In this document: in pieces, positions 30,060 to 60,423 of the stretch
Numbering within the stretch: position 1 is the stretch's first letter
How the letters are laid out: every line of letters starts with the position of its first letter
Assembly: GCF_007750855.1 (NCBI RefSeq)
Contig: NZ_CP036291.1
Span: 3,410,001 to 3,474,000, forward strand
Length of the DNA stretch: 64,000 bases
Direction: 5' to 3'
Source of the DNA: Pirellulimonas nuda
Lineage (GTDB): Bacteria; Planctomycetota; Planctomycetia; Pirellulales; Lacipirellulaceae
Notes under the pieces: generated by a model
What the model was told of the DNA's origin: nothing
Database searches by the model: none
The model's input: the letters and a program-made list of their open reading frames with translations, nothing else
Made by a program: the position numbers and the translations under genes

Positions 30060-30152
30060 CGAGTTTTTTCTGCGGGCGTATTACGCGTTAGATGCTCGTC
30101 GACGTGCGATTCTCTTTTGATGTTCTTCATTGCCGATTCAGGAAATTTTCCC

Positions 30153-30932
30153 ATGCGTGCCCTGCTCCTCTGCCTTGTCCTGGTTTTACCTGCGGCGAAC
30201 GCGAACGCTCTGTCGGACTTCGGAACTATCGATATCAAGTACCTCGGCCAGGCCAGCGGCCTTTCTGCCGCCAACGGCGGGCGGTTCAATTGGGAGTACA
30301 AGAACCTGAACTCGTCGTCGGTACCTGCGAGCCGAATCGAATCAATTTATGACACCAACAAACTATTTACCTTCTGCGTCGAACTCGGTGAGACCATCCT
30401 CGGCAGCGGGTTCCACACCTACACGATCCGCAACGTTACCGACGGCCCACTCGATTCGGCCGGCACCGGCTTCGGTGCAGGAGCGACGATGAGCGACGCT
30501 CAAGCCACACAAGTAGAGCTGCTGTCCAAGAACTACCTCTTGAAGGCGGCGGGCGGCACCCTCGCCGGCCTGCTGGGAAGCGGCACCAACGCCCAAGCCG
30601 CCGGGTCGTTCCAGCTGGCGGTATGGGAAATCGTCTTTGGCGACGGCAACGCCAACACGGCGCTTGGCGGCACGACCCTCGACAACGACGCCACCATCAA
30701 GAGCAACGCTCAGGCCCTGCTCGACTCGCTGGTTGCGGCCGGCAGCCTGGCGCCGGCGTTGGACGTCGCCAATCTCAAGGTGCTCGTGCTGACCAATTCC
30801 GAGGGCAACGGCGTTGCCCAGGACCAGCTGATTGTGGTCGCGGTCCCCGAGATGGCCTCGATCATGACTTGGGCGTGCCTCACGGGCGTGCTCGGGGTGG
30901 TGGCCCGTCGCCGCCGTGCGGCCGCCGCCTGA
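30153..30932 (+). CDS. PEP-CTERM sorting-signal protein
   Basis: Exported protein of 259 residues. It starts with a clear signal peptide (MRALLLCLVLVLPAANANA). The mature part is small-residue-rich, with a FCVELGETI segment and many Asn, Gly, Ala and Thr residues. The C-terminus has the tripartite sorting signal: a VPEMAS motif near residue 231, a hydrophobic helix (MTWACLTGVLGVVA) and a terminal RRRR cluster. The PEP motif is a variant (PEM). The ATG at 30153 is preceded by AGGA at 10 bp; an upstream in-frame ATG at 30117 would put extra residues before the signal peptide. The exosortase gene follows within 250 bp. Confidence 0.87.
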   Translation: MRALLLCLVLVLPAANANALSDFGTIDIKYLGQASGLSAANGGRFNWEYKNLNSSSVPASRIESIYDTNKLFTFCVELGETILGSGFHTYTIRNVTDGPLDSAGTGFGAGATMSDAQATQVELLSKNYLLKAAGGTLAGLLGSGTNAQAAGSFQLAVWEIVFGDGNANTALGGTTLDNDATIKSNAQALLDSLVAAGSLAPALDVANLKVLVLTNSEGNGVAQDQLIVVAVPEMASIMTWACLTGVLGVVARRRRAAAA

Positions 30933-31025: not shown

Positions 31026-31176
31026 CCGTTGATCGTCCGCAGACACCGGCTCATCATGTAAGATGGCGACGCCCTCCTGACATGGCCCGGAAGCCAGCGT
31101 GAGGAGGTTTCGCGATCTATGAGTCAACAGCTACCGTAAGACCTTGGGCGGCCCCCTCCGGGGAACTGTGCAAACG

Positions 31177-34100
31177 ATGGGAAAGTCGATGTCGAGTACA
31201 GAGAGATCGCAGAGATCCGGCGTCTGGGCTTGGCTCGCTCCAGCGGCGCTGCTCGCGATCGCGGTATGGGCCTACTGGCCGACACTCGTCCGGGTGACCG
31301 AGGCGTGGGCGTCCGACCCCGACTACTCACACGGCTATTTGGTCGTCCCGATCGCGCTGTTTTTCCTCTGGCTGCGGCGGGATCGCCGCCCGCGGCTTGA
31401 ATGGGGGCTATTTCCCACTGGACTGGTGTTGCTGGCGATCGCCGGCTTAATGCGGCTGGTCGCGTCGCGGTTCTACCTGTTTGAAATCGACACCTGGAGC
31501 GTCCCGCTGTGGGTCGCCGGAGTCGTGTGGACGCTGTGGGGCTGGCCCGCACTCCGCTGGGCCCTCCCGTCGATCGCGTTCCTCTGGTTCGCGACCCCGC
31601 TGCCGGGCACCGTGGCGCTCGCGCTGAGCGTGCCGCTGCAGAAACTCGCGGCGCAGCTGAGCGGGGTCGCCTTGCAGATCTGCGGGCTGCCGGCGATCGT
31701 CGAGGGGACGACGATCCTGCTGGGTGACGAGTCGCTGGAGGTCGCCCGTGCATGCAGCGGTCTACGGATGTTCTACGGCATCACGGCGCTCGCTTTCGCC
31801 AGCATTATCATCATGCGTCCGGGATGGTGGAAGGCCATCGCCGCGGTGCTAGCCATCGCGCCGGTCGCCGTCTTGATGAACGTGCTCCGCATCACGGCGA
31901 CGGGGGTGCTGACCTACAGTTTCCCTGGGGCCGGGATTGAGAAGCAAGTCCACGACTGGGCCGGCCTGTTGGTCCTGCCGCTGGCGATGCTTGTGTTTAT
32001 GGGGCTTCTAGCGCTGTTCGACCGCGTAGCGACAAGCTGGAGTGCGGACCCGCGCCGCACCGCACCCTGGCTGCTCGGGGCCGCGGCGGGCTGCATCGCG
32101 CTGGTGGCATTGGGGGCCTGGCGGTACCAGACAGAGCGGGAGCGTTCGCTAGCGACTCTTCTGACCGCCTCGGCCCGGTATGAGGAAGAAGGGGACCTCG
32201 ACGAAGCGATCCGTTTCCTGAACCGCTACACGCTCGCCAGGCCGGAGGACGCGGCCGAGCAGGTCCATCTCGCGGAGCTATTTGCGAAGGCCGCCGACAC
32301 CCCTGGCCGTAAGATTCGGGCCGTGGAGCTACTGCGCAGTGCCTACCTAGCCGATCCCTCACGCCGCGACCTCGGCATCTGGGCGGTGGAGCTGGCTCTC
32401 GAGACCGAGACCTTCGGCCCCGCGCTCGAGCTGCTCGGGGCAATGCAGGCCGACCCGGCCGGCGCCCAAGACCCCGAATTGCTCCAGAAACGGGCCGAGG
32501 TCTTGCTGGCCTACATGAACGCCCCACAGGGGCAGCGTCAAACCAAGATCTCTTGGGGCGACGTCGCCGAGGCCTTGCAAGATTCGCTGGCCGGGGAAGG
32601 CTACCCCGCCTCGCACGCGGTCGCGCTGGCGGTCGTAACCCGCGATCGGCTAGCCGAGCCGGACGCGGCCCAGCGGGCTCAGGCGGCCAATGCGGTCATC
32701 AATCAGCTAGTCGCGGAGCGGCCCGAGGACGCTGAAGCGCTTTTCGCCCGTTACCGCTACGCCCGGGCGTACGGGCCGGCGGCCGAAGGCTTCGATCCAG
32801 ACGCCGACCTCGACAAGGCTCTAAAGCACCGCGCCGGCGCCCCCCCCCAGCCCCGCGCAGAGCTGCTGATCACTGCAGCCGATCGCAGTCGGGCGGACGA
32901 CCCAGCAGCGGCTCGCAAGCTGCTGGAGGAGGCCATCAAAGCAGACCCCGCGGCTGTGCCGGCCTACCTGGCGCTCGCCGAGCTCGCCCGCAACGAGGGA
33001 GGGCCGGTCGACGGATGGCAAGAGGCGGTCGTCGTACTCCGCCGCGGTCTAGCAGCCAACGAAGACGCGCCCCTGGCGTTGTCGTTCGGCCTCGCCAAAC
33101 TGCTTGTCGAAGGGGGAGAGCACGCCGAAGCGGCCGAGCAAATCAAAGAGATCCGCGTGTATGTCGATCGCATTAAGGACCCGGCGCTTCGCGGGTACGC
33201 TAGGCTAGAGATCGCGGTGGTCGACGCGATGCAGGCAGCCCGCGCGAAGCGGACCGCCCAAGCAGCCGCTACGCTGGCCGCCGCGCTGCGGCGGGCCGAT
33301 GTAACGGCCGCCGCCGAACAGCGCTACGCCGAACCCGTGGCCGATGCCTGGCGGCGGCTCGCCGGCTGGTACGCCGAGCTCGACCGCAGCGACGCGGCGC
33401 TGGCTGCCTGGCGGAGGGTCGTGGCGCTGGCGCCCACTTCCGCCGCGGCCCAGGCGGCCGTGATCGACGCCGCGATCGACGCCGGGGACACCGAGGCAGC
33501 GGTCGCCGCCAGCCGCGAACAGGTGCAGAAATCACCCGATTCCGGCGTCGCTTGGCTTCGGCTCGCGCAAGCGTTGCTCGCCGACCAGCTCCGGCTCCCT
33601 CCCGCCTCCCGAAAACTGGCCGCCGTCGAGCAGGCCGCCCAAAAGGCGGCCGAGCTCAAGGCCCCCAGCGTCTCGTTGGCCCTCGCGTTCGTCGACCTGC
33701 GTCGCGCCCAGGACCGCCGCCCGGAGGCCGCGCAGTCCCTGAAGCGGGTCTTGGAGAAGGACCCGGCTCAACCAGAGATCTGGCAGTCGCTGGCCACGCT
33801 CGAAATCGAGCAGGAGAACTACGACGAGGCCCTTGCCGCGATCGGAGCGCTGACGGAACAGGGCGGCGACATCTCCACCGCCGAGGCCCTGCGGGCGACG
33901 GTCCTGATCTCCACAGGCCGGGGGCCCGAAGCGGCCGAGCGTCTCGCCAAGGCGCGCGCCAGCGCCCGCGGCGACGATCAGGTCGTCTTGACCCTGCTAG
34001 CCGCGGCCCTAGAGCGTCAGATGGATCGCAGCGACGCCGCGCGGACGATGCTGTCTGCCGCCCGCGACGCCGATCCAACGAATCTGCGGTACGTGCAGGC

Positions 34101-36432
34101 GCTGGCCCAGTACGCCCTGGCTGACCGCGATTGGGCCGCGCTCGCGGGCTGGGAGACCAAGCTCCGCGGGCTGGAGGGTGAGGAAGGGACCCAGTGGAAA
34201 GCGTGCCGCGCCCTGCGGCTGTTGATGTCAGGAACCAAGCCCGACGCAATACAGCTCGCCGAGTGTGAAAAGCTCGCTGAGCAGATCATCGAGACGCGGC
34301 CGCGATGGGCGACCGGCCCGTTCTTGCTGTCACAGGTTGCCCTGCAACAAGGCGACTCAGAGCGGGGCCTTGCGCAGCTGCAGCGGGCCTGGGAACTCGG
34401 AAAACGCGACAGCGTCAGCGCAGAACAAATGGTCGCGTTGCTCTCGGCCGCCGGTCGCCGGGAAGACCTCGAGCGGTTCGCGGCCGAGTTGGGCGACCTC
34501 CCCCTCATGGCGCCGGCGGTCTACGACTTAGTGATCCCGTCGCTGCTGGGCTCGGCCCGCGGGGGCGCCGCCCTCGACAAGGCCCGGCAGTGGGCCGAGG
34601 AAAACCCCGAGGACCCCGGTGCGCAGCTGCGGTTGGGGCGGGCGCTGCTCTTCAGCAGCGCGGCTCTGCAGGGTGCGTCCGCCCGCTCAGAGCAAATGTC
34701 GCAGGCCGAAGCGGCGTTCCGCGAGGCGGTCCGGCTTGGGCCGGACCGCCTTGACGCCTGGATGGCGCTGTTTGGGTTCATGCTCCAAACCGAGCGACCA
34801 GAGGGAGCTTCCGAGGTCATTAGCCAGTTTAAGCAGTCGGCCGAGATCGACCCCCTCCCCAAACAGCTTGCGCTCGCGCAGCTCTGGGCGGCGTCCGGGC
34901 AGGTCGCCGCCGCGGTCCACCACTGGCGCGCAGCGAGCGACCTCGCGGAACAGCAGCCCGGGTCCCCGCAAAGCGCGGCCGCGCAGGCCCAGGCCGCAGC
35001 GTTCTTCATGAACAGCAGCCCCCCGCTAGCCCAGCGTTATTGCCGTCAGGCTCTGGCGTCCGACCCCGACGCCATTCAGCCGAGGATTTTGCTAGTTCAA
35101 CTGCTCGGCCAGCGGCGGACGCCCGAATCGGTCGCCGAAGCGCTCGAACTAGTCGGGCGGATCCCCGAGGAGCCAGCAAGCATCGCGGTCGAAAAAGCGA
35201 GGCTGCATGCCCTACTCCTCGCCGAGCGAGACGAAGAAGGTGACATCGCCGAGGCGATTTCGCTTATCGAATCACTCCCCAGCCGGGGTGTGGTTGAACG
35301 GCGTCTTTTGGCGGACCTGTACGAACAGGCGGGCCGTATCGGAGCTGCCTACGAACAGCTGGATGAGTTGGCCGACGAGCGCCCACAGCAAATAGCGGAT
35401 CTCGTGCGATTGCTGCGATTCTGGCAAACGCACTTGCAAGCCGACCGCCAATTCGCCGGCCGCATCGCATCGGCGCTCGGCCAATTGGGTAGGTTGCCCA
35501 GTGGGCTCGCGGAACAGCTACGCTGGCAGCTGCGTTTGGCCGCGACCGAGCAGGCCGGTGGAGCGACCGGCGAAGTTGGATCCGCGGACGGAGAGAGCGC
35601 CGTTTCGACGACAGCCACAGAATCGACGGACGTTGCCGCTGGCTCGCCGGCCATCGATCCCGAGGTCCAGCGGGAGGTGCTGGGCAATTTCTGGCGCGGA
35701 GCAGTGGCGCGTCGCGCGCTCGAGGATCCTAATTCGGCGCCCGGACTGCTCGTGGGAGCCTACCGCGCCATGCTCGACGAGGGGTGCCTGGCGGGGGTCG
35801 AAGCCACCGCCCTCAACCCACCGGCCCAATCCATCTCACCCACCTACGCGGCGCGGCTGCTGGCGAACGTAGAGATGATGTCGCCCCCGGCCGACCCGGC
35901 CCACATCGATCTGGCCGAAAAGCTGCTGGACCAGCAGTTGGCCGCTAGCCAGGACGACTTGGCTCTGCTCCGCGACGCCGCCGACCTGGCGGCTGTAACC
36001 GGACGCAACGAGCGGGCCGAATCTCTTTACCGGCGGATGCTTGCCGTCGAGCCGACCAACGCCAACGCTTGCAACAACCTCGCCAGCCTCTGGATCGAAG
36101 ACCCCCGGCGCTGGGACGCGGCCCGTAAGCTTGTCGAGCAGGGCCTCGCCGCTCACCCCGACGACGCGTCGCTGCTCGACACGAAGGGTCAGCTGCTGCT
36201 GCTCGCTGGCGAGGCCGACGCCGCGGTCGAGGCGCTGGGCGTTGCGCTCCGGGTCGATCCCTCATCAGCCACCGCCCACCTCCATCGGGCGCGGGCCATC
36301 GACGAGATGGGCCAACAAGCAGAGGCGAGCGAGGCGGTCCTGGCAGCGCTCGCCTTGGGGATCGCCAACGAGACGAAGCTCCCGGCGGATGCGAAACTGC
36401 TCGAACAGCTGCGAGAGAAGTTTAGTCTCTAG
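31177..36432 (+). CDS. xrtU: Exosortase (XrtU type) fused to a very long TPR region
   Basis: Protein of 1751 residues. Residues about 20-310 are a multi-spanning exosortase: the family segment DPDYSHGYLVVPIALFFLW near residue 46, the catalytic Cys193 in VARACSGLRMF, Arg238 in MNVLRITATG and His259 in QVHDWAG. These enzymes cleave the PEP-CTERM signal and anchor the protein. From about residue 325 to the end there is a chain of TPR-like repeats (for example YEEEGDLDEAIRFLNRY and, near the C-terminus, NACNNLASLWIEDPRRWD), about 1400 residues, presumably extracytoplasmic. A linker of about 45 residues rich in Glu, Ser and Thr lies near residue 1470. Stand-alone exosortases are about 200-550 residues. 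The frame is open from 31144; the ATG at 31177 or 31189 is the likely start. Confidence 0.9.
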   Translation: MGKSMSSTERSQRSGVWAWLAPAALLAIAVWAYWPTLVRVTEAWASDPDYSHGYLVVPIALFFLWLRRDRRPRLEWGLFPTGLVLLAIAGLMRLVASRFYLFEIDTWSVPLWVAGVVWTLWGWPALRWALPSIAFLWFATPLPGTVALALSVPLQKLAAQLSGVALQICGLPAIVEGTTILLGDESLEVARACSGLRMFYGITALAFASIIIMRPGWWKAIAAVLAIAPVAVLMNVLRITATGVLTYSFPGAGIEKQVHDWAGLLVLPLAMLVFMGLLALFDRVATSWSADPRRTAPWLLGAAAGCIALVALGAWRYQTERERSLATLLTASARYEEEGDLDEAIRFLNRYTLARPEDAAEQVHLAELFAKAADTPGRKIRAVELLRSAYLADPSRRDLGIWAVELALETETFGPALELLGAMQADPAGAQDPELLQKRAEVLLAYMNAPQGQRQTKISWGDVAEALQDSLAGEGYPASHAVALAVVTRDRLAEPDAAQRAQAANAVINQLVAERPEDAEALFARYRYARAYGPAAEGFDPDADLDKALKHRAGAPPQPRAELLITAADRSRADDPAAARKLLEEAIKADPAAVPAYLALAELARNEGGPVDGWQEAVVVLRRGLAANEDAPLALSFGLAKLLVEGGEHAEAAEQIKEIRVYVDRIKDPALRGYARLEIAVVDAMQAARAKRTAQAAATLAAALRRADVTAAAEQRYAEPVADAWRRLAGWYAELDRSDAALAAWRRVVALAPTSAAAQAAVIDAAIDAGDTEAAVAASREQVQKSPDSGVAWLRLAQALLADQLRLPPASRKLAAVEQAAQKAAELKAPSVSLALAFVDLRRAQDRRPEAAQSLKRVLEKDPAQPEIWQSLATLEIEQENYDEALAAIGALTEQGGDISTAEALRATVLISTGRGPEAAERLAKARASARGDDQVVLTLLAAALERQMDRSDAARTMLSAARDADPTNLRYVQALAQYALADRDWAALAGWETKLRGLEGEEGTQWKACRALRLLMSGTKPDAIQLAECEKLAEQIIETRPRWATGPFLLSQVALQQGDSERGLAQLQRAWELGKRDSVSAEQMVALLSAAGRREDLERFAAELGDLPLMAPAVYDLVIPSLLGSARGGAALDKARQWAEENPEDPGAQLRLGRALLFSSAALQGASARSEQMSQAEAAFREAVRLGPDRLDAWMALFGFMLQTERPEGASEVISQFKQSAEIDPLPKQLALAQLWAASGQVAAAVHHWRAASDLAEQQPGSPQSAAAQAQAAAFFMNSSPPLAQRYCRQALASDPDAIQPRILLVQLLGQRRTPESVAEALELVGRIPEEPASIAVEKARLHALLLAERDEEGDIAEAISLIESLPSRGVVERRLLADLYEQAGRIGAAYEQLDELADERPQQIADLVRLLRFWQTHLQADRQFAGRIASALGQLGRLPSGLAEQLRWQLRLAATEQAGGATGEVGSADGESAVSTTATESTDVAAGSPAIDPEVQREVLGNFWRGAVARRALEDPNSAPGLLVGAYRAMLDEGCLAGVEATALNPPAQSISPTYAARLLANVEMMSPPADPAHIDLAEKLLDQQLAASQDDLALLRDAADLAAVTGRNERAESLYRRMLAVEPTNANACNNLASLWIEDPRRWDAARKLVEQGLAAHPDDASLLDTKGQLLLLAGEADAAVEALGVALRVDPSSATAHLHRARAIDEMGQQAEASEAVLAALALGIANETKLPADAKLLEQLREKFSL

Positions 36433-36505: not shown

Positions 36506-37192
36506 GTGAAGACACGTTTTCCTTGGATCGCTGCCGCCGCGCTGACGGCGGTCGTCGCCCTGACCGTTGGCCCCGCGGTGCTTCACGGCAGCTATTCCAA
36601 CCGCTGGGGCGTCCCGGCGTCGCGATTGCGGGCGGCCGAGTCGATCGGCGCTTTCCCGAGCAAGATGGGCGCGTGGGAGGTGTTCGAAGAAGGCAAGCCG
36701 CTCAGTGAAGGCGTCCAGCGGGAGCTGGGGCTCGCGGGCTACGTTCATCGCTACTACCGCCACGCGGAATCGGGCAAGGTTGCGATGCTGCTGCTGATGG
36801 TCGGCCAGCCGGGCCCCTTGGTGCGGCATCCCCCCGACATCTGCTACGGCAGTCGGGCCAACAAGCTGCTCAACGGAGAACGCATGGAGGTCGCGGACGC
36901 CGACTCTGATCGGGCCAGTGAGTTCCGGGTGCTGACCTACAAGCCTAACACGCGGCTCCGCGAGGACTTTCGCGTCGCATTCGCCTTCACGAGCGACGGG
37001 ACATGGGCCGCGCCGGGCGCCCCCCGGGTCGTCTACGGGGGCGAGCCGCTGGTTTACAAGGTGCAGATCCAGCTCCCGCTGTCCGACATTGACCCGGACG
37101 ATCAGCGAGTACTCTTGAAGCAGCTGCTCGGAGAGTTTGTCGCTGCGTTTGACCGCTATCAGGCCGAGAACGACGAACCGAGTGGGGGCTAA
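36506..37192 (+). CDS. Exosortase-associated EpsI-family protein
   Basis: Protein of 228 residues with one N-terminal hydrophobic segment (FPWIAAAALTAVVALTVGPAV) and a periplasmic domain. The EpsI signature is HPPDICYGSRANK near residue 108 (family form H-P-x-x-C-Y). EpsI-like proteins accompany exosortases, often fused to them, and are needed for EPS or sorting functions; their exact activity is not established. It starts with GTG 73 bp after the exosortase-TPR gene. A GC-rich inverted repeat (GCGGCG/CGCCGC) lies between the two, without a T-run, so read-through is expected. Confidence 0.87.
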   Translation: MKTRFPWIAAAALTAVVALTVGPAVLHGSYSNRWGVPASRLRAAESIGAFPSKMGAWEVFEEGKPLSEGVQRELGLAGYVHRYYRHAESGKVAMLLLMVGQPGPLVRHPPDICYGSRANKLLNGERMEVADADSDRASEFRVLTYKPNTRLREDFRVAFAFTSDGTWAAPGAPRVVYGGEPLVYKVQIQLPLSDIDPDDQRVLLKQLLGEFVAAFDRYQAENDEPSGG

Positions 37193-37559
37193 TGCGGTCC
37201 AATCACCCACGCAGGAATCGTTTGTTGATCAAACGATTCGTCAGCCTAGCCTGCCAAAATGCGTTTCGTTTGGCTCCCTCCAGCTTGGTTCGTTCGATTC
37301 GCCAGGCCAGCGTCGATTGACGACATCCAGTGCCAATACCGTCGCGGCTCCTCGTGACTCGCCTCAGGCCCGCGTACCGTCACCCTAACGCCGCTACCAG
37401 CCGGCGGCGACGGCCGAAGGGCCGCCTACTTCTAGACGCCGACTGTGCTTGTAAGCGGCCGCAATCCCGTTGGAGGCGATCGCGATCGGTTAGGCGTCCG
37501 CTTTGGGCACGTAAGCGGCTGGAACCCGTCAACCACCTACCGGTGGCTATCCGGCAGGC
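37193..37559. other. Intergenic region with possible IS66-like end
   Basis: No gene seen. Two copies of GTAAGCGGC (at 37452 and 37511) resemble IS66-type termini, and the second continues as GGAACCCGTCAACC up to the IS3 insertion at 37560. It may be the left end of an older element into which the IS3 element jumped. Confidence is low because nothing recognisable of its genes remains beyond the IS3 element. Confidence 0.35.
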
Positions 37560-37599
37560 TGAGGTGGTGCGGAATTGACGGACAGGTGAGGAGCTTAGA

Positions 37600-37923
37600 A
37601 TGGCCGGCGAAAGGATTGCCGCCATGCCACGCAAGAAGCCACAGCCCGCAAAGTCGGGACGCCGCGTATTCACTCCAGAGTTCAAGCAGGAAGCGGTGCA
37701 GATGCTGCTGGACGGTCACAAGGCTAGTTCAGTAGCCGAGCGTCTGGGGGTGTCGCACGCCAACGTGCTGTACCGCTGGAAGCGTGAGCTGCTCGCCGAG
37801 AGCGGGCCTGTGGCGGGCGCCTTGGAGACGCGTGTCCATGAGCTGGAGGTCGAGCTGCGTCGGGTCGAGCGTGAGCGGGACGTGCTAAAAAAAGCGTTGA
37901 TTATTTTCGGCCGCAACGAGTAA
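37600..37923 (+). CDS. IS3-family transposase OrfA
   Basis: Protein of 107 residues: a helix-turn-helix domain (TPEFKQEAVQMLLDGHKASS, then GVSHANVLYRWKRELLAE) and a C-terminal leucine-zipper-like coiled coil (ALETRVHELEVELRRVERER). OrfA binds the terminal repeats. Its end contains the sequence CTA AAA AAA GCG, where ribosomes can shift by -1 into orfB to make the OrfAB transposase. The start is ATG (MAGERIAAMPRKK); an internal ATG after 8 codons is the alternative. Confidence 0.93.
   Translation: MAGERIAAMPRKKPQPAKSGRRVFTPEFKQEAVQMLLDGHKASSVAERLGVSHANVLYRWKRELLAESGPVAGALETRVHELEVELRRVERERDVLKKALIIFGRNE
37887..37893 (+). promoter_or_regulatory. Programmed -1 frameshift slippery site of IS3
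   Basis: Seven consecutive A in the context CT-A-AAA-AAA-G at the end of orfA. A -1 shift here gives AAA AAA AGC GTT GAT and runs into the orfB frame, producing a fused OrfAB. The truncated copy at 16996 carries 8 A at the same place and is fused without frameshifting, which supports the assignment. Confidence 0.8.
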
Positions 37924-37940
37924 CGGAGGTCTACGCCGCC

Positions 37941-38798
37941 ATGGAAGCGATCGTCGCTATCAACGCCGCGTCGGTGCAGGAGGCCTGCGGCATCTTGGGC
38001 GTGAGCCGCAGCGCGTACTACGCTTGGCGTCGGGCCGAGCCGACAACACGTGACGAGCAGGACTCGGAACTGCTGCCCTTGGTGCGTACGGTCTTCCAGA
38101 AGCACAGCCGCCGCTACGGGGCGCGTCGGATCGCCGCGGAGCTCAGCGACATGGGCCACGCGTGCGGCCGGCGTCGCGTCGCGAAGCTACTGGAGATGCA
38201 GGGCCTGCGGGCAATCCAGCCGAAGTCCTACAAGCCCCGCACCACCGAGAGCCGCCACCGCTTGGGCTACAGCCCCAACCTACTCTTGGAGGCCGAGCAG
38301 CCAACGAGCATCAACCAACTATGGGTGGGAGATATTACCTACGTGCCGATCGTCGGCGGGGTGTTCAGCTACCTGGCGACACTGATGGACCGTTTTTCGC
38401 GGCGCATCGTCGGCTGGGAGCTCGGCCAAGACATGACCGAACAACTCGTGCTGGCGGCGCTTACCGCCGCGATCCGCTCACGTGGCCCGGGCGCTGGGCT
38501 GATCCACCACACCGATCGGGGCGGCCAGTACGCGGGCGCCGAGTACCGGGCCGTGCTGCGACGCGCCGAGATGCGTCAGAGCATGAGCCGCGCCGGAGAC
38601 TGCTACGACAACGCCTTCATGGAATCTTGCTTCGGGACCTTCAAGACCGAACTCGAAATGACCGAGTACCAAGACCATGCCGAGGCGCGTGGCGAGATCG
38701 CCAGCTACGTCGCCTACTACAACCTCGAAAGAAAGCACTCCGCTCTCAGCTACCTCTCTCCCCACCAATTCGAGAACATCAAACGGCCGGCCAATTAA
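37941..38798 (+). CDS. IS3-family transposase OrfB (DDE integrase)
   Basis: Catalytic part of 285 residues. An N-terminal helical segment (GILGVSRSAYYAWRR, HTH_21 region with YGARRIAAEL) precedes the rve-type integrase core. The DDE triad is visible: D in LWVGDITYVPI, D in LIHHTDRGGQYAG and E in FKTELEMTEYQDHAEARGEI. The end is YLSPHQFENIKRP. It is normally expressed as the OrfAB fusion by frameshifting. The protein is identical to the copy at 62717 except for about one residue (Ser to Asn before YVAYYN). Confidence 0.95.
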   Translation: MEAIVAINAASVQEACGILGVSRSAYYAWRRAEPTTRDEQDSELLPLVRTVFQKHSRRYGARRIAAELSDMGHACGRRRVAKLLEMQGLRAIQPKSYKPRTTESRHRLGYSPNLLLEAEQPTSINQLWVGDITYVPIVGGVFSYLATLMDRFSRRIVGWELGQDMTEQLVLAALTAAIRSRGPGAGLIHHTDRGGQYAGAEYRAVLRRAEMRQSMSRAGDCYDNAFMESCFGTFKTELEMTEYQDHAEARGEIASYVAYYNLERKHSALSYLSPHQFENIKRPAN

Positions 38799-39040
38799 GC
38801 TCCTCACCTGTCCGTCAATTCCGCACCACCTCAGGCTACTCGCGGGTTTGGCCAACCTCGCTAATCGCTTGGCCGATTATCAAATTGCGAAACGGCGAGG
38901 TGATGCAGCCGTCCTGCGCACCCCAACTACCAGAAACTTCTGCTTGGACTGTTGCATCTACCCGCAGGGTCGCTAAACTAACGGGAAGTGTTCAGTAGGG
39001 TGGCTCGTCGATCCGGGCACGCTGACTCGCAGGATTCGCA

Positions 39041-39514: not shown

Positions 39515-39597
39515 ACTTCTGCGCGAAGGCGTGCGCTCAAGTAATCGCGCGCTTGGACAGTTTTTGGATTTCCCAAATTGATTCAGGAGTAGTAACG

Positions 39598-40422
39598 ATG
39601 CGATATCTAGTAGTATTTTCTTGTTCGATCGTCGCGGCAGCCGCGATGACCGGTTCGACGCTTGCGTCGATCGCAGTCCAGTCGCAAGACGGTAAGATCT
39701 ATAGCGTAGCGACCACGGGCGGTTCGGCCGGTTTGGCCACGGAGATCGGGTCTTTCACGGACGTAGGCCCGTCTACGGCAACGAAGGTCAGCCCTAACTC
39801 CCTGGCGAACTATCAGGGGAGCTTCTTCCGCAGCGACTTCGCCCCGACGTCCGGCGTTAACACGCTCTACAAGGGCAACTCTGCGTTCCTGACGCCCCTG
39901 GACGGTTCGGCTTCCAACAACGAGTTTGCTGCTGGCGGCATGCTGGGCAGCGAGTATCACTACATCGACGCAGCCTCAAATCTGCGTAAAGTGGACGTCA
40001 CTGCGGGCGTCCCGACTTCCACCCTCGTGGCCGACCTCGGTACACTCGGTGATTTCGGCGACCTTGCGTTCGGCAACGGTGTGCTGTACGTCTCCCACGG
40101 CACCGGCGTCAATCAAAAGCTCTCTGTCTTTGACACGTTAGGGAATCTGCTCACGTCGTACGACAAGGATCGGTACGCCGGCTTGGCCTTTGACCATGGC
40201 ATCCTCTACGGTGTAACGGGCGGGGCCAGTTTGCTGTACGAAATCGTTCTGGGCGGCGCCGACACGTTTATCGCGGCCGTCGCGACGGCCGGCGGAACGG
40301 CCATTTTTGGTACGGACGCAGCCTCTGCGGTCCCGGAGGTGTCGAGCCTGCTGGTGTGGGGTAGCCTGCTGATCCCGGTCGGATTGTCTGCCGGCCGTCG
40401 CTACCGCCGGCGTCTCGCGTAG
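39598..40422 (+). CDS. PEP-CTERM sorting-signal protein
   Basis: Exported protein of 274 residues. The signal peptide is RYLVVFSCSIVAAAAMTGSTLAS. The mature part has repeated short segments such as GDLAFGNGVLYVSHGTG and GLAFDHGILYGVTGG, which resemble beta-propeller blades. The C-terminus carries VPEVSS near residue 245, a hydrophobic helix (LLVWGSLLIPVGLSAG) and a basic end RRYRRR. AGGAG lies 9 bp before the ATG at 39598, so the longer frame from 39553 is not used. It ends before a strong terminator. Confidence 0.88.
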   Translation: MRYLVVFSCSIVAAAAMTGSTLASIAVQSQDGKIYSVATTGGSAGLATEIGSFTDVGPSTATKVSPNSLANYQGSFFRSDFAPTSGVNTLYKGNSAFLTPLDGSASNNEFAAGGMLGSEYHYIDAASNLRKVDVTAGVPTSTLVADLGTLGDFGDLAFGNGVLYVSHGTGVNQKLSVFDTLGNLLTSYDKDRYAGLAFDHGILYGVTGGASLLYEIVLGGADTFIAAVATAGGTAIFGTDAASAVPEVSSLLVWGSLLIPVGLSAGRRYRRRLA

Positions 40423-41596: not shown

Positions 41597-42697
41597 CTAG
41601 AAGCCCCCCCCAAACCCATTGTTCCCGTTGTTCTGATTGAAGAACTTGATCCGCTGGGCGGTCTGAGTCCCCAGCAGCGTCACGCCGAACATCCGCTCGA
41701 TCGGCGAGATCACCTTGGCCAGCTGCGTGTCGAACGCGATCAGCTTGTCCTCGGCGATGAACACCCGGTCCCCCGGCATCAGCTGGTAGTTGGTCGTGAT
41801 ATCGCCCCGCTGGGTGATGCCCGGCCAATCGATCGCCAGCAGCTGGTCGCCGCCGCAGTCGTTCTTGCCGGGGCGAGCGATCCACATCCGGGTAGAGCTG
41901 GTCCCGCTGAGACCCTGTACCTGGCTGATCGCGTCGAGCGCGGTCTCGTTGCCGGTGATCGGGAACTGGATCAGCTGGTCGCCGAGCCCCGCGCCCTGCG
42001 TGACCACGTAGAAGACCTTGCTGTTGTAGCCATAGACGTCGACGGCCACTTCCGGGTTCTCGAACTGGCTAGCGAGGCTCGCCTCGATCGCCGATTTGGC
42101 TTGCTCGATCGTCATGCCGACGACCCGCACGCGGCCATAGACGCCGAGGTTCACCGTGCCGTCCATGCAGACGAGGTGCTCTCCGGCGACATCCTGGCGC
42201 GTCGCGATGCTGGTCAACGTGACCCAGACCTTGGGTTCCCGGGCGGTCTCGGCGAGCCGCTCTCGCACCGCTTGCTGCGCCTCCGGGATCGTCATGCCGG
42301 CGATCACCAGCGGACGGTATTCTTCTTTGCTGGTGTCGAACCCCAGGCCGAGCACGAGCGTGCCGTCGATGCCGATCGTGTACTCGCGACCCAGAATCCC
42401 CGGCGCTCCTCCCAGCGACGACTCGTCCGGCAGCCCGTTCGCCTCGATCTGCAAGGTGTCCAGCGGCCGCAGCCGGTAGGGCTGCTTTGGCATCAGATTG
42501 ACCGCCTGGATCGTCAGCACGTCGGGGGGCTCGATCACGTAGTCGGGCAGGATCACCTTCTCATGCTCGCGAGCGACCCCCTGGGGGACGGGCGTGTAGG
42601 GGCCCGGCTGGTGCGCGACGGGCTTTAGCACCCGGCAGCCGGGAAGCACGCAGCACGCCAGCGCCAAGGTCGCGACTAGCCTGGCGGAGATTCTCAT
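41597..42697 (-). CDS. Polysaccharide export outer-membrane lipoprotein (Wza/OPX-like)
   Basis: OPX-family lipoprotein of 366 residues. The signal peptide ends VLPGC. A polysaccharide-export domain (PPDVLTIQAVNLMPKQPY, then RLRPLDTLQIEANG and EYTIGIDGTLVLGLG) is followed by a second export-like repeat (DGTVNLGVYGRVRVVGMTIEQAKSAI) and an SLBB-like segment (VFYVVTQGAGLGDQLIQFPIT). The end is Asn/Gly-rich. It should form the outer-membrane channel for the exopolysaccharide and work with the GumC-like protein at 2205. The ATG at 42697 gives a proper signal peptide; the frame from 42763 does not. Confidence 0.9.
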   Translation of the reverse strand: MRISARLVATLALACCVLPGCRVLKPVAHQPGPYTPVPQGVAREHEKVILPDYVIEPPDVLTIQAVNLMPKQPYRLRPLDTLQIEANGLPDESSLGGAPGILGREYTIGIDGTLVLGLGFDTSKEEYRPLVIAGMTIPEAQQAVRERLAETAREPKVWVTLTSIATRQDVAGEHLVCMDGTVNLGVYGRVRVVGMTIEQAKSAIEASLASQFENPEVAVDVYGYNSKVFYVVTQGAGLGDQLIQFPITGNETALDAISQVQGLSGTSSTRMWIARPGKNDCGGDQLLAIDWPGITQRGDITTNYQLMPGDRVFIAEDKLIAFDTQLAKVISPIERMFGVTLLGTQTAQRIKFFNQNNGNNGFGGGF

Positions 42698-42963
42698 TGA
42701 ACAATGCCCCGGGTCGGCGAGATCGACAGTTCCGTCTGCGGCGCCCTTTCGGCCGCAAGTCATAGCCGGCGCATCCGCGCCTACCGGGATCTATCGGCAA
42801 AACCCGCAAATCCCTTGAGAACCAAAAACCGGCCCGCCGATCTAAGTCCTGAGCGGCCTGGACGTCGGCCGGCCCGCGGCCGCCACCGACCAGGGACATT
42901 AGGGGGCCCGATCCCCTGCCCCGGCCGCACCGTACGTTTCCGCCAACTACCGAGGAACCGCCG

Positions 42964-43368: not shown

Positions 43369-44046
43369 CCATGCGACCCTCGACCGTTTCGCCGTCGATT
43401 CTAGGGGCCGTCCTGTGCGCCTCGCCGACGCCGCCTCTCGTCCAGCACGACTGTCGCCGAGGCCGCTGCGCCCACGGGCGCGTTCCGGTGCCTCGGTGAC
43501 GCTGCCGCAGGGCAACCGCTCGGCAGAAGTCTGGCGCCCGCTGCTCGCTTGTCGCCGCGAGGAGCTCGCATCTGAACGCTCCTTACAATGCCAGTCCCGG
43601 GTACGACGCCTGCCGAGGGGCGACGAGCCGCCGCTGCTGTTGGTGCGCCGCGAATCGGCGGGTCGGCGCCCGAACGGGTCAGCAGGATCGTGGACTGAAG
43701 CCAGCGGATCAACTCTTCGGATCGCGACGCCAGCGGCAAAGCCGCTGGGCGCCCCCTGCCCAACTTGGTTGTCCATCCCGGGATAGGAGCACTTGCAAAG
43801 GTCACCCCGGCGGCAAGCCGCCTTCCCGCTGCTGCCCAGGCTGCCGCCCCGGGCGCCTACCATTTCCTGCATGCCAGATCGGGATGGAGCCGTTTTTTGC
43901 ATTTTTCCGTGGATAGGCGCTTGAAACAGTTGCGGGTATCAGCCATGATCGCGTTGGGTGGATCTTCGGCACAGATCCCCCAACTCCTCACCGGGGACGC
44001 AATAAGGCGTCAACGACCAAGAGATATCAACCAAGGACTCGACCTA
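43369..44046. other. Intergenic region, no gene seen
   Basis: Frames on the minus strand (up to 300 codons, 43000-43902) overlap the preceding gene and have a shadow-like composition. The last 200 bp are AT-richer and probably hold the promoter of the PEP-CTERM gene; I could not identify a clear -24/-12 or -35/-10 pair. Confidence 0.5.
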
Positions 44047-44694
44047 ATGACGACCACAACACGTTGCTCCTTCTTGGCCTTCGCGGTCGCCGCGTCGGCA
44101 TTGCTATCTGGCACTGCTTCGGCCGGTTTGATCGAGATCGGCTTCACCGGCCTAAATATCTCGTACGACGGGTCGGCGATCTCGACCACCGGCGGTATCG
44201 ACCCGCTCACCTCGGTCTCGATCACCAACGACTCCGTCGCCGTCGCCGGATCGCCCTTCGGCTCTGACATCGACATCACGCTGTCGATCCCCGGCGTCAC
44301 GGGCATCGCCACGACCGGCGGCACGGTTGGGACCGTCGGATCGGGCTCGCTGCTGCTCGGCCTGCCGGGCGCCGATGGGTTGTCTCTGCTGCTGGACCCC
44401 GCTTCGATCACGTTCGTGAACGTCGCGTCGACAGTCCAGTTCGCATTCGGTGGAACCGTGGCCGCGATTTCGAGCCAATCCCTCCCAGGTGGGATCGTCA
44501 TTGGCGACCCCGTTTCCGTGACCTTTGCGACGTCCGTCGTCCCGGGCACGCTGACCGAGATCGGCGGCACGGTGACCGGCTTCCGGGCGACCGGCACCGG
44601 CGAGATCGAGGCGCAGATGGTTCCTGAGCCCGCCACCGCCGTGTTGCTGGCCGTTGGCGTCGCAGCCGTCGGCCTACGACGTCGGCGCCGCTAG
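44047..44694 (+). CDS. PEP-CTERM sorting-signal protein
   Basis: Exported protein of 215 residues. The signal peptide is TRCSFLAFAVAASALLSGTASA. The mature part is Gly-, Thr- and Ser-rich with few charged residues (for example GVTGIATTGGTVGTVGSGSL). The C-terminal sorting signal is canonical: VPEPATAVLLAVGVAAVGLRRRRR, with the PEP motif, hydrophobic helix and basic end. AAGGA lies about 9 bp upstream of the ATG at 44047. A frame open from 43765 has no plausible signal peptide. A terminator follows within 40 bp, so this is a single-gene unit. Confidence 0.93.
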   Translation: MTTTTRCSFLAFAVAASALLSGTASAGLIEIGFTGLNISYDGSAISTTGGIDPLTSVSITNDSVAVAGSPFGSDIDITLSIPGVTGIATTGGTVGTVGSGSLLLGLPGADGLSLLLDPASITFVNVASTVQFAFGGTVAAISSQSLPGGIVIGDPVSVTFATSVVPGTLTEIGGTVTGFRATGTGEIEAQMVPEPATAVLLAVGVAAVGLRRRRR

Positions 44695-51757: not shown

Positions 51758-53199
51758 CGCCTCCAGAAGAGTTACTGCATGCATCGCCAAGCTCCTTCAA
51801 CCAAGAAGTCCCCCGGCAACGCTTTCCTACGCCACTCCCCTCAACGCGGTTCTGGGAAAAAAGACTTCGCAGTTCTTTTGCCCGTTCACCTCGAGCGGTC
51901 GGCACAACGCCGTATGCAGCTTGGCTGCACACACTTAAGGGCCGTTGCAACTCTTGAAACATCCCAATCAGCGCACGGTCAGCACCTACTCCGCCATCCG
52001 GGTTCGGTGACTGCGGCAGTACAGCACCCGGTTCGTGCGTGCGCCGATCGCCGCACCACCGTTAGTACCTCTACGGGTTCGCTCACGCGGGAGGCAGGAC
52101 GATGTCCACCGAATTATTTGGGCCGCGACCAACGGGTCTGAACGGCGACAGCGAGGAGCTGTTTGATCGACCGTCCACCGTAGGCTCCCTTGCGGACGGC
52201 GGCCGCGGCGCGGCGCCTCCCACCACGGCCGGCGACGCGGCGGCCCCGAAGCTCCGCGGCCGCCGCGTACGTCCCAGCTGGAGGGTCGACGCTTGCAACC
52301 TGCCGCACTTCCTCGTGCGCGGGTCCAGAACCTTCTTCGGACCGCTCTTCCGTAGCGTCTCTTCCTCGATAAGGGATATGGCTTCGCGCTTCTGTGCGCT
52401 CAGCATCAGTGCCGTCGCTGCACGCTCCACATCCGACCCCTTCGACAGAAGAAGAGCGAGCACCGCAAATCTGGTCAACGGGCTCTACGAAGGCTCGTCG
52501 AGCCCAGCGCCGCACGGCTCATTCATTACTTCCGCTTCCTCGTTCCGCCGGAAGCGAAGGTCGAAGAGCAAGAGGAGCCGGTCTATCGCATGCTTACTCC
52601 GTTCCGGTGGCGGATCCTTGGCATTCTGCGCAGGCTATCGGTGAGACGCGACCGACGATCTACGCCAAGCTCAGGCTACGAAACGATGCGAAAATCGGCG
52701 TCCTCCCCCGAAAGCCACGGTGGCGTCGTCGTCAGGTTCGCGCTCCCGAGCAATTGGCAGATTGTGAGGCTTCGGCAAGGTGTAGCGACGCATTCGCCGG
52801 CATTTCAAGTATCCGAGCCCGGCGGCACTTCGCCGATCGGCCCCACGGCGTCGCCGGCCCCCCTCGAAAATTTGATTGCCCCACTCAAATTGTATAATCT
52901 TCAACGCCTCGTGCGGCGTAAGCATCGCACGCATTGATGTTCCGGGGAAGACATTCGGAGTCCTCTGATGGGAAGTGCAAACGCGGCTCGGCGCCACGCC
53001 CAACAATTGAACCCTTCGCTGGCAAAGTGTGCGCGATTGTCGTCTGCCGGCGCGGCGGTGGATGCCCCGTTGGAACAGCGAAACCGGGCGGTGGTCAAGG
53101 TGGCCTAACGACATCGGCGAGCGGCAGCGCCCGCCGTCCGACTACCTCGCGGTACTTGTAGCGAACTGGTTATCGAACCCAATCGAGAAAGGAATTCCG
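51758..53199. other. Island leader region without a clear gene
   Basis: About 1.4 kb before the large conflict protein. The plus-strand frame 52102-52644 begins with a good ribosome site (GGGAGG, 7 bp before ATG, MSTELFGPRPTG), and its first 70 residues have plausible composition. Further on it becomes Ser/Arg-rich, as if frameshifted; I could not assign it. The other frames overlap each other. The promoter of the large gene should lie here; the region after 52860 is AT-richer. Confidence 0.4.
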
Positions 53200-56100
53200 A
53201 TGTCGCACGAATCCTCCGCGGCTTCCCAGGCTGTCCGTCTCGGCGCAGAAGATGGCCAAGACGAGGTCGCTACCCAACTCCGAAGGCACCTCGATGAAGA
53301 CTTTCATGCGATTGTGCGAGAAGCATTCCAGCTTTGGTGCGGCGGCGGCCGGTTTCAAATCGTGAAGGACTTTCAGGGCGGCCATAGCGGCGCCGCCGTG
53401 CTGAAAGTGGATCTCTCCTACGAGCCGGGTACGGAGGGAGAATTGCCCGGCGGCGGCTATATCCTGAAGGTTTATCGACACAAGCCTTCCTCGGAAGACG
53501 CCACTGAGCGTAAGCGGCACGACGAGGCGACCGGACTAACGCACGGCGATGCCATCCGCATCCCACAACTCATGCGTGAGCATTCCGCCGAGGACGAGGG
53601 CCGGACGAGAAGCGTGCTGCTCTATCAGATTGCCGGCGAAAGCTCGACGCGACTAACGACACTTCAGAACGCCGCCCATCAACTCCACGAGTTCAGCGGA
53701 GGGCTTGCGCTTGGGATCCTCAGGCAATGGGCGCGTGGGGCTGGAACTGCGATGAGCGGCCGCGAATTGCTCGAGGCCTGGCTGAAGAGCCTCGATCGTA
53801 GCTCGCGACCCAATGTTCACAAACTGATCGAGGGCGTGTTCGCCGGCAAAGCGCAGATGTACGCCGCCGGCAAATCTCTCGTCAATCCGCTTTGGCTCTA
53901 CGCCCAATGCGGCGAAGAAAACGATCGGGAGGTGCACTTTCCTGGGTTTCTGCACGGTGACCTGCACCTCGAAAACGTGCTGGTTGAACGCAAGAGCGAA
54001 GACGATCCGCCGTTCTGGCTTATAGACTTCGCGCTTGCGAGGAACGAGGCTCCGATTGGTTTCGACCAGAGCTACTTGGAGGTCTCGTTGATACTTTGCT
54101 GCCTGCGTGATCCCACTCCAGAGCAGGTCGCCAATTTGTGCGACGCGGTCGAGCAGGCGCCGGGCAAGGAGCGCGTCCCCCACGACAATCGCGGCCTGCT
54201 GGAGATGCTACGCGGCGTCCGCGACGCCATCGCGCGGTGGCACGAAGAGTCAGCCTTGGGACGTTCGGACGAGGTCCGGCGGCAGTTTGTCCTGTCCCGC
54301 GTGGCCGCTGGACTCAACTGGGCCGACAAGGACGGCATGTCTGAAAGCAATCGCCTCGTGGCGCTGTACTACGCCGCATGGAACGCGCGTCGCTACGTGG
54401 AAGAATTCATTCCGCAAGTGTGGCAGCGGCTGCAGGATGGTGACACCGCGGTCCACGACGTGCAAACAAGCGCCGATGAAGCGGATCTATGGCAGCGCAT
54501 TTGGAACGCCACAAGCGGCTTCGACAGCAGGCAGACCCGGTTCGTGTTGATAGCCGACCGCCAACTGCCATCCGAGCAACTCCGCAGCATCGGCTTGCTG
54601 CCGTGGTCGGCAGTGATCGACCTTGATGCGGAAAGCGATGAGTCGGGGCTGCATCGCTCGGCCGTCGACACGTTGAGGCGCCGCCGGGCGGTGCGAGAGT
54701 TCAGCCTGGCCGGAGAGCTTATCGACTTCGACCGCGGTACTGCTTGGATGATGGCGGCCGGCTGGAAGAGGCGCGGCGAGGCTGTCCCCTCACTCGACGA
54801 TTGGCGCGTCACGCATCGGAGGAACGTCCGCGGATTTCTGGAACGCTTCCGCGATTCGGTCGGCTCGATGCAGACCGTCGTGGTCATCTTGCCGCGTCTC
54901 GACGACGGAAGCGCCGACGACCGTGAGAGGCTCGACCTGCTTGCAGACGTGGTGAACGAGGCTTTCGGCAAATCGGCGTCCGTGATTCAACTTGGGGCGC
55001 ACAAGCCGCTCTCGCCCCTCGTTGTCGAGCATATTCCGCTGCAGGGTTCGCTGTTCCTGCGCAATATCGCGGACATGTTTGGTAGCGAGCGTGCCTCCGA
55101 GAACGTATCGCTACCCAGCATCGAGGACGGCGACGTCGAGATCTCGATGGAGAGTCTCCGTGAGTTTGAAGAGGATCTGGAACTCCTGCATTCGCGATTG
55201 CTCAGCGATCCGGAAGGACTCCCGGAAGAAGGCGATTCAGAGTTCTGGCGCGGCAGCCCGCCCACGTGGCACGACATTAACGCCAATTTCGACGTGCCAC
55301 GCGACGCGGAGGCGTCGATTGAGAAGCAACTCCGCGCGGCGCTTACCGACCGTCGCATCTACACAGTGGAACTGCGGCACCAACCAGGCTCGGGCGGCAC
55401 GACTCTTGCCCACCGTTTGGCGTGGAATCTGCGGAGAGAACACCCCGTCGCCATCTTACGCAAGCGATCCCAATACACCGCAGATCTGATCGGGAAGCTG
55501 TTCCACACGACCGGCCTGCCGGTACTGTTGGTCGCGGACGCTGGCACGATCACCGACGCGGAACGACTCGACCTGATGAGCGACCTGCGGGATCGAAACT
55601 GCCGCTTGGTCATGCTCTATGTGAAGCGCGTCTTCGGATCGAACGCGGAAACGGACGAGGGCAAGCGCACGCACGAGCGGAGCAGAGTCGACTTGAGCGA
55701 CCCGATGTCGGAGCGTGAATCCGGCAGGTTCTTCGAAGCCTTCTCGTCGTTTACAGACGACAGCCGACGCATTTCCGAGCTCAAGAAGATAACCGACGAG
55801 AAGGACTACCGGCGGTATCGGTCTCCGTTCTTTTACGGCTTGATCACTTTCGAACGCGATTTCAAGTCCGTTCAGAATTTCGTTCGGGCCCACACGAGTC
55901 AAATCAGTCGGAATACACGCGAGGCTCTTGAGTACCTTTCGTTGCTCACACGATTCTCGAAGATCTCCGTTCACGAGAGCCTCGTCAAGCGATTGATGAA
56001 TCTAAGGTCGCGCAACTTCGCATCGCTGCGCGAAGCGATCGGCGACGGGCCGTGGGGGCTGCTGCTTTCGCAGGACGGCCGAGTCAAGATCTTACACCCC

Positions 56101-59652: not shown

Positions 59653-60423
59653 ATGCTTGGATACGTCGCTGGCAAGCTGTTTGAGATCGCAGGCAAAGCC
59701 GCAGTTGATTCGGGAATCGATGAGATCGTGACCAACCGGAGGTGGCTATCTCACGCCATTGGTGCGCGTACTCTTTGGGCGAATCGCTCGATTCGAGTGT
59801 CTATTGCGGAGATCTTGCGGCTTAAGTCCGGACAGAAGTATGTTCTTGTGCAGAACGCGCGGCAATCGGAACGCGTTACGCCGATCGGCGGAGTGATCCG
59901 GTGTTTTCCGAGCGGCTTGGCCCACCTGCAAGACAAGTTGCAGTACGTACCGGAGGTCTCCGGCGGGGACCGGCAGTTCGACCTGCGAGGGTTCGTCATT
60001 GGGAAGCGGTTTCCGGCCTTCTTGTCTTGGCTTTATTCCGAGCAAGGGCGGGAGCGCCAGGCACTATCTCGCGAAATTGTGGAAGAGTTAAAGGAGGTGG
60101 GAGACCACGGAATCGCGGACGCGGTAACGCGGCCCGAGTATAGGCTCGTTCGCATGGTCCACGAGGGCCCGGTTCCGGTAAAAGGCGTGGAGTATTGGCA
60201 GTATCGATTGTTCTACGTTTACGAACTTGAGAAGGAACACGCGGAGTCAAAAGGACTCGCCGATGCGATTGTCGCGGCAGCCAACAAATCGAAGGGTTTG
60301 GTATTGGTTAGCAACGGCGAAATCCAGAAAGGCCGTGCGAAGAACGGCAAGCTCGTTGGCGATTCAAGCGGCTACCTGTTTGGGTCGACGGCGGCGGGGG
60401 CTAAGCCAACGCCTTACCGATGA
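59653..60423 (+). CDS. SMODS-associated NUDIX-like protein
   Basis: Product of 256 residues. A short N-terminal amphipathic or membrane-proximal helix (MLGYVAGKLFEIAGKAAVD) precedes a NUDIX-like domain: SIRVSIAEILRLKSGQKYVLV, then RVTPIGGVIRCFPSGL, DLRGFVIGKRFPAFLSWL and a Nudix-box-like ALSREIVEELKEVG. This order matches my memory of the S-NUDIX family found next to SMODS nucleotidyltransferases in CBASS-like systems, where it is thought to sense or process a nucleotide-derived ligand. No SMODS/CD-NTase gene is present here; the only partner is the giant NTPase 96 bp upstream on the same strand. The Nudix box is not fully canonical, so hydrolase activity is uncertain. Confidence 0.7.
   Translation: MLGYVAGKLFEIAGKAAVDSGIDEIVTNRRWLSHAIGARTLWANRSIRVSIAEILRLKSGQKYVLVQNARQSERVTPIGGVIRCFPSGLAHLQDKLQYVPEVSGGDRQFDLRGFVIGKRFPAFLSWLYSEQGRERQALSREIVEELKEVGDHGIADAVTRPEYRLVRMVHEGPVPVKGVEYWQYRLFYVYELEKEHAESKGLADAIVAAANKSKGLVLVSNGEIQKGRAKNGKLVGDSSGYLFGSTAAGAKPTPYR

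Follow-up and report, generated by a model that had tools for sequence, protein, structure and literature searches.

An exosortase fused to a long TPR array in Pirellulimonas nuda and related planctomycetes

Introduction

A single open reading frame in the genome of Pirellulimonas nuda joins an exosortase to about 1400 residues of TPR repeats, and this raises the question of what a protein-sorting enzyme would do with such an arm and on which side of the membrane the arm lies. Exosortases are bacterial enzymes that putatively cut surface proteins and anchor them. The TPR parts of PgaA, AlgK and BcsC tie to the exopolysaccharide export machine or to the outer membrane.

In the literature consulted, TPR proteins are connected to exosortases through gene neighbourhood, phylogenetic profiling and a single floc mutant. 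The first description of PEP-CTERM systems, in its accessible part, linked the TPR lipoprotein PrsT to them and treated fusions of EpsH as Rosetta stones (PMC1569441). In the available part of a later paper, floc formation requires prsT, a TPR gene found in PEP-CTERM systems, and the mutant loses its flocs (PMC9850573). Among the titles and abstract openings listed from one open-licence collection, none described an exosortase-TPR fusion, which is weak evidence of absence.

Domain organization of the fused protein

The window is the whole stretch of 64,000 nucleotides that was analysed. The fused gene within it starts with ATG at 31177, ends with a stop codon at 36432 and holds no internal stop; an in-frame TTG lies upstream at 31144. 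A frame of six codons plus stop (31119-31139, + strand) follows a GAGGAGG stretch just upstream of the gene, and may be either a leader peptide or a chance frame. The features of the gene are as follows.

31177..36432, + strand: fused exosortase-TPR gene, 1751 aa (open reading frame; same fusion in 13 genomes)
31252..32016, + strand: exosortase (EpsH) domain, residues 26-280 (PF09721, TIGR02602)
31753..31755, + strand: Cys193, catalytic (invariant in 76 of 76 relatives)
31888..31890, + strand: Arg238, catalytic (invariant in 76 of 76 relatives)
31951..31953, + strand: His259, catalytic (invariant in 76 of 76 relatives)
32062..32118, + strand: ninth membrane helix, residues 296-314 (clear by one hydropathy scale and weak by the other)
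32164..35559, + strand: main TPR array, residues about 330-1461 (Pfam, AlphaFold2)
35560..35658, + strand: poorly predicted linker, residues about 1462-1494 (AlphaFold2 pLDDT mostly below 50; low conservation)
35659..36357, + strand: C-terminal TPR block, residues about 1495-1727 (conservation, Pfam)

The exosortase domain was recognized by Exosortase_EpsH (PF09721; E 3.8e-57, 194 bits against a cut-off of 25.7) and by TIGR02602 (132.2 bits, exceeding the cut-off of 105.55). Among 25 of the 28 families matched, every one of the eight named subtypes (XrtA, B, C, D, N, T, V and W) scored below cut-off, with 153 against 400 for XrtD and 134.8 against 208 for XrtA. The catalytic set Cys193, Arg238 and His259, named in a first-pass annotation of this DNA, is present as stated there. 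A sequence search for a solved relative of the exosortase domain gave none up to E 1.

A short charged loop follows helix eight and leads to the ninth helix, at the position where the separate TPR proteins of relatives carry their N-terminal anchor. The TPR part then runs for about 1400 residues after the exosortase domain and this helix. Several Pfam TPR models match the protein, with the best stretches between residues 722 and 1721. In two AlphaFold2 runs, each with the window protein and one relative, TPR-type helices were predicted from about residue 320 on, about 75-80 of them in the TPR part. The scores formed blocks of 69-94 over residues 321-650 and were mostly 60-87 over residues 561-1751, and the longest stretches below 50 in this part lay near 1402-1443 and 1459-1492. 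Residues 1-288 scored below 50, and the model of the exosortase half is unusable. The annotated passage of the catalytic part into a very long TPR chain was borne out as regards the single intact frame and the length, but the run is not unbroken, since the ninth helix separates the two parts and the poorly predicted linker lies inside the chain.

The 50 Foldseek matches listed for the TPR half, LbcA (8sxf_C) among them, were long TPR-type proteins of many functions with low query TM-scores (0.13-0.24), and therefore support the TPR fold and allow no function to be read from them. Residues 1608-1727, with N1633, N1634 and H1703, are among the best conserved of the TPR part. Conservation is spread along the whole array, and a putative binding site cannot be picked out with safety.

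Side of the membrane

When the window protein was scanned by itself, hydropathy gave seven segments before helix nine, including one at 164-182, and missed the helices at 54-66 and 107-122; its parity would place the TPR part inside. When hydropathy was averaged over 76 relatives on two scales, eight clear peaks were obtained, with exosortase helix centres near 27, 59, 85, 115, 137, 205, 227 and 270, and the segment 164-182 was weak on one scale and absent on the other. The domain thus shows the eight membrane helices of the exosortase family, with the catalytic residues predicted at the outer face, by a sequence-based count with which the single-sequence scan disagreed.

Charges in the loops gave the same orientation. 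K+R in loops assigned inside and outside was 23% versus 5% in the 13 fused rows, 23% versus 5% in 43 separate exosortases with TPR and 20% versus 4% in 20 exosortases of other type; the sides were assigned manually and with knowledge of the charges of the window protein, whose row is therefore no independent test. The separate TPR proteins have a basic N-terminus, one helix and then the TPR part: over 43 proteins, the 25 residues preceding the helix gave a K+R/D+E of 231/69 and those following it 134/154, with the bias failing individually in 6 of 43. Around helix nine of the fused proteins the ratio was 38/26 before and 45/52 after; K+R alone was no higher before the helix than after, and the net bias failed in 4 of 13.

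If the TPR part were cytoplasmic, it could regulate the enzyme from inside. Such a placement would agree with the parity of the single-sequence scan and with the four fused proteins whose charge bias at helix nine is contrary to expectation. We nevertheless regard it as very improbable, since it conflicts with the eight-helix average, with the loop charges of all three sets of rows and with the basic-then-hydrophobic anchor of the separate TPR proteins. From the eight-helix average together with the loop charges, the catalytic residues and, past helix nine, the TPR arm are probably on one side of the membrane, the outer one. The outer location proposed in the first-pass annotation is accordingly supported by hydropathy and charge counts, but the structure prediction lent it no support. 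The annotation had also named, as findings that would speak against it, a frameshift or an assembly join of two genes, and a cytoplasmic TPR part absent in relatives; as to the latter, the best evidence points to the outer side, and 13 carriers were found.

Distribution and origin of the fusion

The distribution was determined in three draws of genomes. In the order-level draw of 396 genomes, an exosortase of this kind was detected at E<=1e-45 in 95, seven of which had it in an open frame of more than 1700 aa. The class-level draw of 397 genomes gave 152 with such an exosortase at E<=1e-38, at least 11 of the long kind. These two draws overlap, and combined they contain 13 fused genomes of nine genera and four family groups, one of which (f22) lies outside the window's order, so that at least two orders of one class are represented. 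Of the 392 genomes in the phylum draw, three matched at E<=1e-45: the window's own and two in which the exosortase is unfused. Aeoliella straminimaris (Planctomycetia, Pirellulales, Lacipirellulaceae) carries the fusion. The conservation across planctomycetes that the annotation had asked about was thus found within the class. A frameshift or misjoined contigs are ruled out by the identical architecture in 13 genomes, and the fusion is therefore neither chance nor assembly error.

A further exosortase was detected at E<=1e-8 in all 13 carriers (below the curated cut-off in G021, G006, G555 and G515), and the fused exosortase therefore looks accessory in its cells.

The exosortase tree, built on 76 rows, placed all 13 fused rows in a single clade (support 100/100) within the TPR-bearing group. 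In the TPR tree (56 rows) they again formed one clade, with support of 100 by one quick test; this tree came from a quick search under a simpler model, and 26 of its rows, the window's among them, were flagged for odd composition. Several independent fusions are not supported by either tree, and from the single clade in both the fusion probably arose once. Inside the fused clade both trees conflict with taxonomy: G012, which belongs to the window's family, pairs with G567 and G649, which come from a different order, and the window is paired with G021, a congener of G012. This disagreement is most easily read as a sign of later transfer of the fusion between lineages, with duplication and loss as a possible alternative.

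Gene organization in unfused relatives

The 79 exosortase loci that were classed comprise 13 fused, 44 with a separate TPR gene and a kinase, and 22 that have a kinase but lack a TPR gene; none of the 79 combines a separate TPR gene with the absence of a kinase. One locus labelled as separate-TPR type (L072) was dropped, leaving 43, and L053, L071 and L072 were excluded from trees and counts because they hold exosortases of other types or a TPR gene distant from the exosortase. In the exosortase tree, five rows of the TPR-less type A (L039, L088, L099, L110 and L121) fall with the TPR type, and their assignment as lacking TPR is unsafe because contigs or stretches end near the gene. In 42 of the 43 separate-TPR loci the order on one strand is exosortase, Wzc-type kinase, TPR protein, EpsI-like; the remaining one has no EpsI match. 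The separate TPR proteins are mostly 1437-1680 aa long, with extremes of 1147 and 1765. TIGR01007 was above cut-off for the kinase of the one relative tested, and in two relatives AAA_31 was above and Wzz below cut-off. In most relatives of this exosortase clade, the two halves are thus separate, with a Wzc-type kinase between them.

At the fused loci, a match to the Wzc-type kinase above 60 bits was found in none of the 13 (14-20 kb each, 64 kb for the window), and an EpsI-like frame lies downstream on the same strand in all 13, although the match is only 43 bits in L085 and the frame is 1.4 kb away in L034.

36506..37192, + strand: EpsI-like protein (DUF3485), 228 aa (PF11984)

PF11984 gave 24.9 bits on the window protein, just below the cut-off of 26.1, and 45.5 and 41.7 bits, above cut-off, on the EpsI-like proteins of two relatives. 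Judged from the gene order in relatives and from the missing kinase match, the fusion unites genes one and three of a conserved operon, and removal of the kinase gene would be the simplest route to it. A move of the kinase elsewhere in the window was considered and rejected, since only weak matches were found (25-34% over 73-115 residues, E 8e-6 to 2e-4). Weak kinase-like matches lie at 4110-4451, the end of an open reading frame (2205-4457, + strand, 750 aa) that has no Pfam match at E<=0.01; this end weakly resembles the Wzc-type kinases of the relatives.

Loss of the kinase gene could also have joined two neighbours neutrally, the TPR part being an envelope scaffold unrelated to sorting. 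In most relatives the proteins are indeed separate, and TPR proteins of similar size occur without an exosortase match within 14-18 kb (L064, L070). This explanation is improbable in our estimate, because 13 genomes from four family groups have retained the fusion intact, each half gives one clade, and the catalytic residues are all kept. By Rosetta-stone logic, the single origin and the retention of a stable fusion argue that the exosortase and the TPR protein act together.

Candidate substrates and their tails

Two frames on either side of the fused gene were identified as candidate substrates.

30117..30932, + strand: candidate substrate, tail VPEMASIMTW...RRRR (open reading frame, tail search, profile; sub-threshold thioester match)
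39553..40422, + strand: candidate substrate, tail VPEVSSLLVW...RRYRRR (open reading frame, tail search, profile)
37556..38837, no strand given: IS3-type insertion element (42-bp terminal inverted repeats; transposase frame 37941-38798, + strand), between the EpsI-like gene and the second candidate

Both candidates have a hydrophobic start and end in a tail motif, a hydrophobic run and arginines, and neither matches the canonical PEP-CTERM tail (TIGR02595/PF07589) at E<=0.01. A third neighbour (44008-44694) matches the canonical tail model. Among PE-tailed frames, the pattern PExxxxxxW (W-tail) was read from the rows in 16 of 19 at fused loci, and occurred in 15 of 21 at separate-TPR loci and in 0 of 3 at TPR-less loci. 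Of the 16 W-tails of fused loci, 13 have a residue other than P after PE, but P follows PE in 13 of the 15 of separate-TPR loci. A W-tailed neighbour is present at eight of the 13 fused loci, and none was found at the other five within the stretch searched.

A profile was made from 13 of the 19 tails of fused loci, omitting three without W (one from the window, two from L034) and three near-copies. It was used to scan 24 chosen genomes, half of them carrying the separate-TPR type and half carrying neither type by the order-draw cut-off. Matches at E<=1e-5, taken as scored by the profile, were found in 9 of 12 separate-TPR genomes versus 1 of 12 with neither (Fisher p 0.003); the 12 genomes with neither type all belong to the window's family. 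Within that family the counts were 5 of 6 with the separate-TPR type versus 1 of 12 without. One genome with neither type at the cut-off used (G002) gave two matches.

Among fused carriers, 12 of 13 had a match at E<=0.05, seven of them having given rows to the profile; the remaining carrier, G515, had none at this level. The top matches often adjoin the fused gene. Eight consecutive ones do so in G012, and G567 and G649 have a single strong match each beside it. In G551, G555 and G494 matches are on contigs other than that of the fused gene, and G038, which also has a separate-TPR system, gave 63 matches at E<=5, most of them elsewhere. Of the W-tails of G012, the eight that adjoin the fused gene are PE-M/L/A, and three read at other places in that genome are PEP. 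The eight consecutive genes (L133, 5538-13285) have very similar tails and bodies that are only partly alike.

In the window genome, where 150 of 393 candidates were scored and the stronger matches were read, all six matches at E<=1e-5 lie within 3.40-3.64 Mb, and the fused gene is at 3.44 Mb; two of the six were in the profile and four were not. Reading of these places gave seven W-tail proteins, none of the seven with the third P; one W-tail found by reading is absent among the listed profile matches. The next-best match is far from the fused gene and lacks the W. The chance of four independent matches within 200 kb on either side is about 1e-5, a figure that is too small because of local gene copies. 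Canonical PEP tails gave at least 149 matches at E<=5 across the chromosome (150 of 337 candidates scored).

By these comparisons the PExxxxxxW tail tracks this exosortase clade, and we infer the pairing of tail and enzyme from them; the W-tail is likely the recognition signal of the clade. As a candidate recognition code, it may set the fused-exosortase channel apart from the canonical channel within one cell. We tentatively entertain a wider reading, which has a little less than an even chance in our estimate: a private, horizontally moving sorting cassette composed of the enzyme with its client-binding arm, EpsI and a few substrates with PE-[M/V/A/I/L]-xSxxxW, which would operate alongside the resident PEP exosortase but orthogonally to it, and would do without the polysaccharide-linked tyrosine kinase that accompanies the unfused form.

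The candidate at 30117-30932 (+ strand) and another candidate substrate of fused exosortases (L085, 18116-18892) share FC[V/I]...QLAVWEIV. The thioester domain TED is the sole Pfam match of both at E<=5 (E 0.023 and 0.07, respectively) and is below cut-off; the two proteins are possibly covalent adhesins sorted by an exosortase. In another genome (G000, C1:3514000-3528000, L124), W-tail and canonical PEP-tail genes stand side by side in one cluster.

Comparison with known systems and proposed role of the TPR arm

The fused locus shares with the PEP-CTERM/exosortase (EpsH) system the domain with invariant Cys/Arg/His, the EpsI-like neighbour, PEP-like tails and the exopolysaccharide setting. 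It differs in the TPR part of about 1400 residues, in the lack of a Wzc-type kinase at the locus and in the tails beside the gene, which are PExxxxxxW and mostly without the third P. PrsT (TIGR02917) is likewise a large TPR protein genetically tied to an exosortase system, and its model is the highest-scoring TPR equivalog for the fused and for one separate form; the scores of 119 (fused) and 168.3 (one separate relative) are both far below the cut-off of 312.2. Unlike PrsT, the TPR protein is encoded with, or fused to, the exosortase. By eye, the N-termini of the separate forms show a helix anchor and no canonical lipobox.

Two-part exosortases have precedents. Fusions of EpsH to CAAX-protease-like domains are recorded in the accessible part of the first description (PMC1569441), whereas the partner in the fused gene is TPR. 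Exosortases of the XrtD type also have a second part in the chain, the XrtD profile including an EpsI-like part, whereas in the fused loci EpsI is separate and the partner is TPR. For LbcA-CtpA and NlpI-Prc, TPR adaptors are proposed, in the accessible part of the source, to carry clients to C-terminal-processing proteases (PMC8764530). The working mode that we propose, a TPR coil delivering clients to an envelope protease, is shared with these pairs, but their enzymes are unrelated and their adaptor is a separate protein.

We lean modestly toward the explanation that the fused protein is a sorting enzyme with a built-in periplasmic TPR adaptor and a small private substrate set. We infer the adaptor role from the location of both halves on the same side, the downstream EpsI-like gene, the TPR-protease precedents and the PrsT links. 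The TPR coil would bind exported precursors, or EpsI, and hold them at the active site; the PExxxxxxW tail of the held precursor would be cut and the body handed on. The first-pass annotation had suggested that the arm could gather PEP-CTERM substrates, the EpsI-like protein or the export complex into one platform; of these possible partners, an EpsI-like protein is encoded downstream at 13 of 13 fused loci and candidate substrates are encoded near 8 of 13. The fusion would set the ratio of enzyme to adaptor at 1:1, and the protein may form a small accessory sorting channel beside the other exosortase(s) of the cell. The fusion also puts exosortase and TPR on a single polypeptide, which makes the pair accessible to expression and testing.

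The main rival to the adaptor role is that the arm tethers the exosortase to the exopolysaccharide export machine or to the outer membrane, and not to substrates. The window is rich in exopolysaccharide genes (glycosyltransferases, sulfotransferases, ABC export, pyruvyl transferase), including a Poly_export match at 41597-42763, and in the separate-TPR loci the TPR gene comes after the Wzc-type kinase. One separate TPR protein matches PgaA weakly (45.5 bits against a cut-off of 366.65), and the predicted helices may form a coil reaching far across the periplasm. Yet the fused loci are without exactly the polysaccharide kinase while keeping exosortase and EpsI, and TPR matches of such kind are generic; we give the tether roughly one chance in four.

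Toward the end of the window, a protein of 2175 aa (53029-59556, + strand) has TCAD9 and STAND NTPase matches and is without a PADLOC match. It is followed by a SMODS-associated NUDIX protein (59653-60423, + strand) that matches PADLOC effectors, and the two genes together are a possible anti-phage system.
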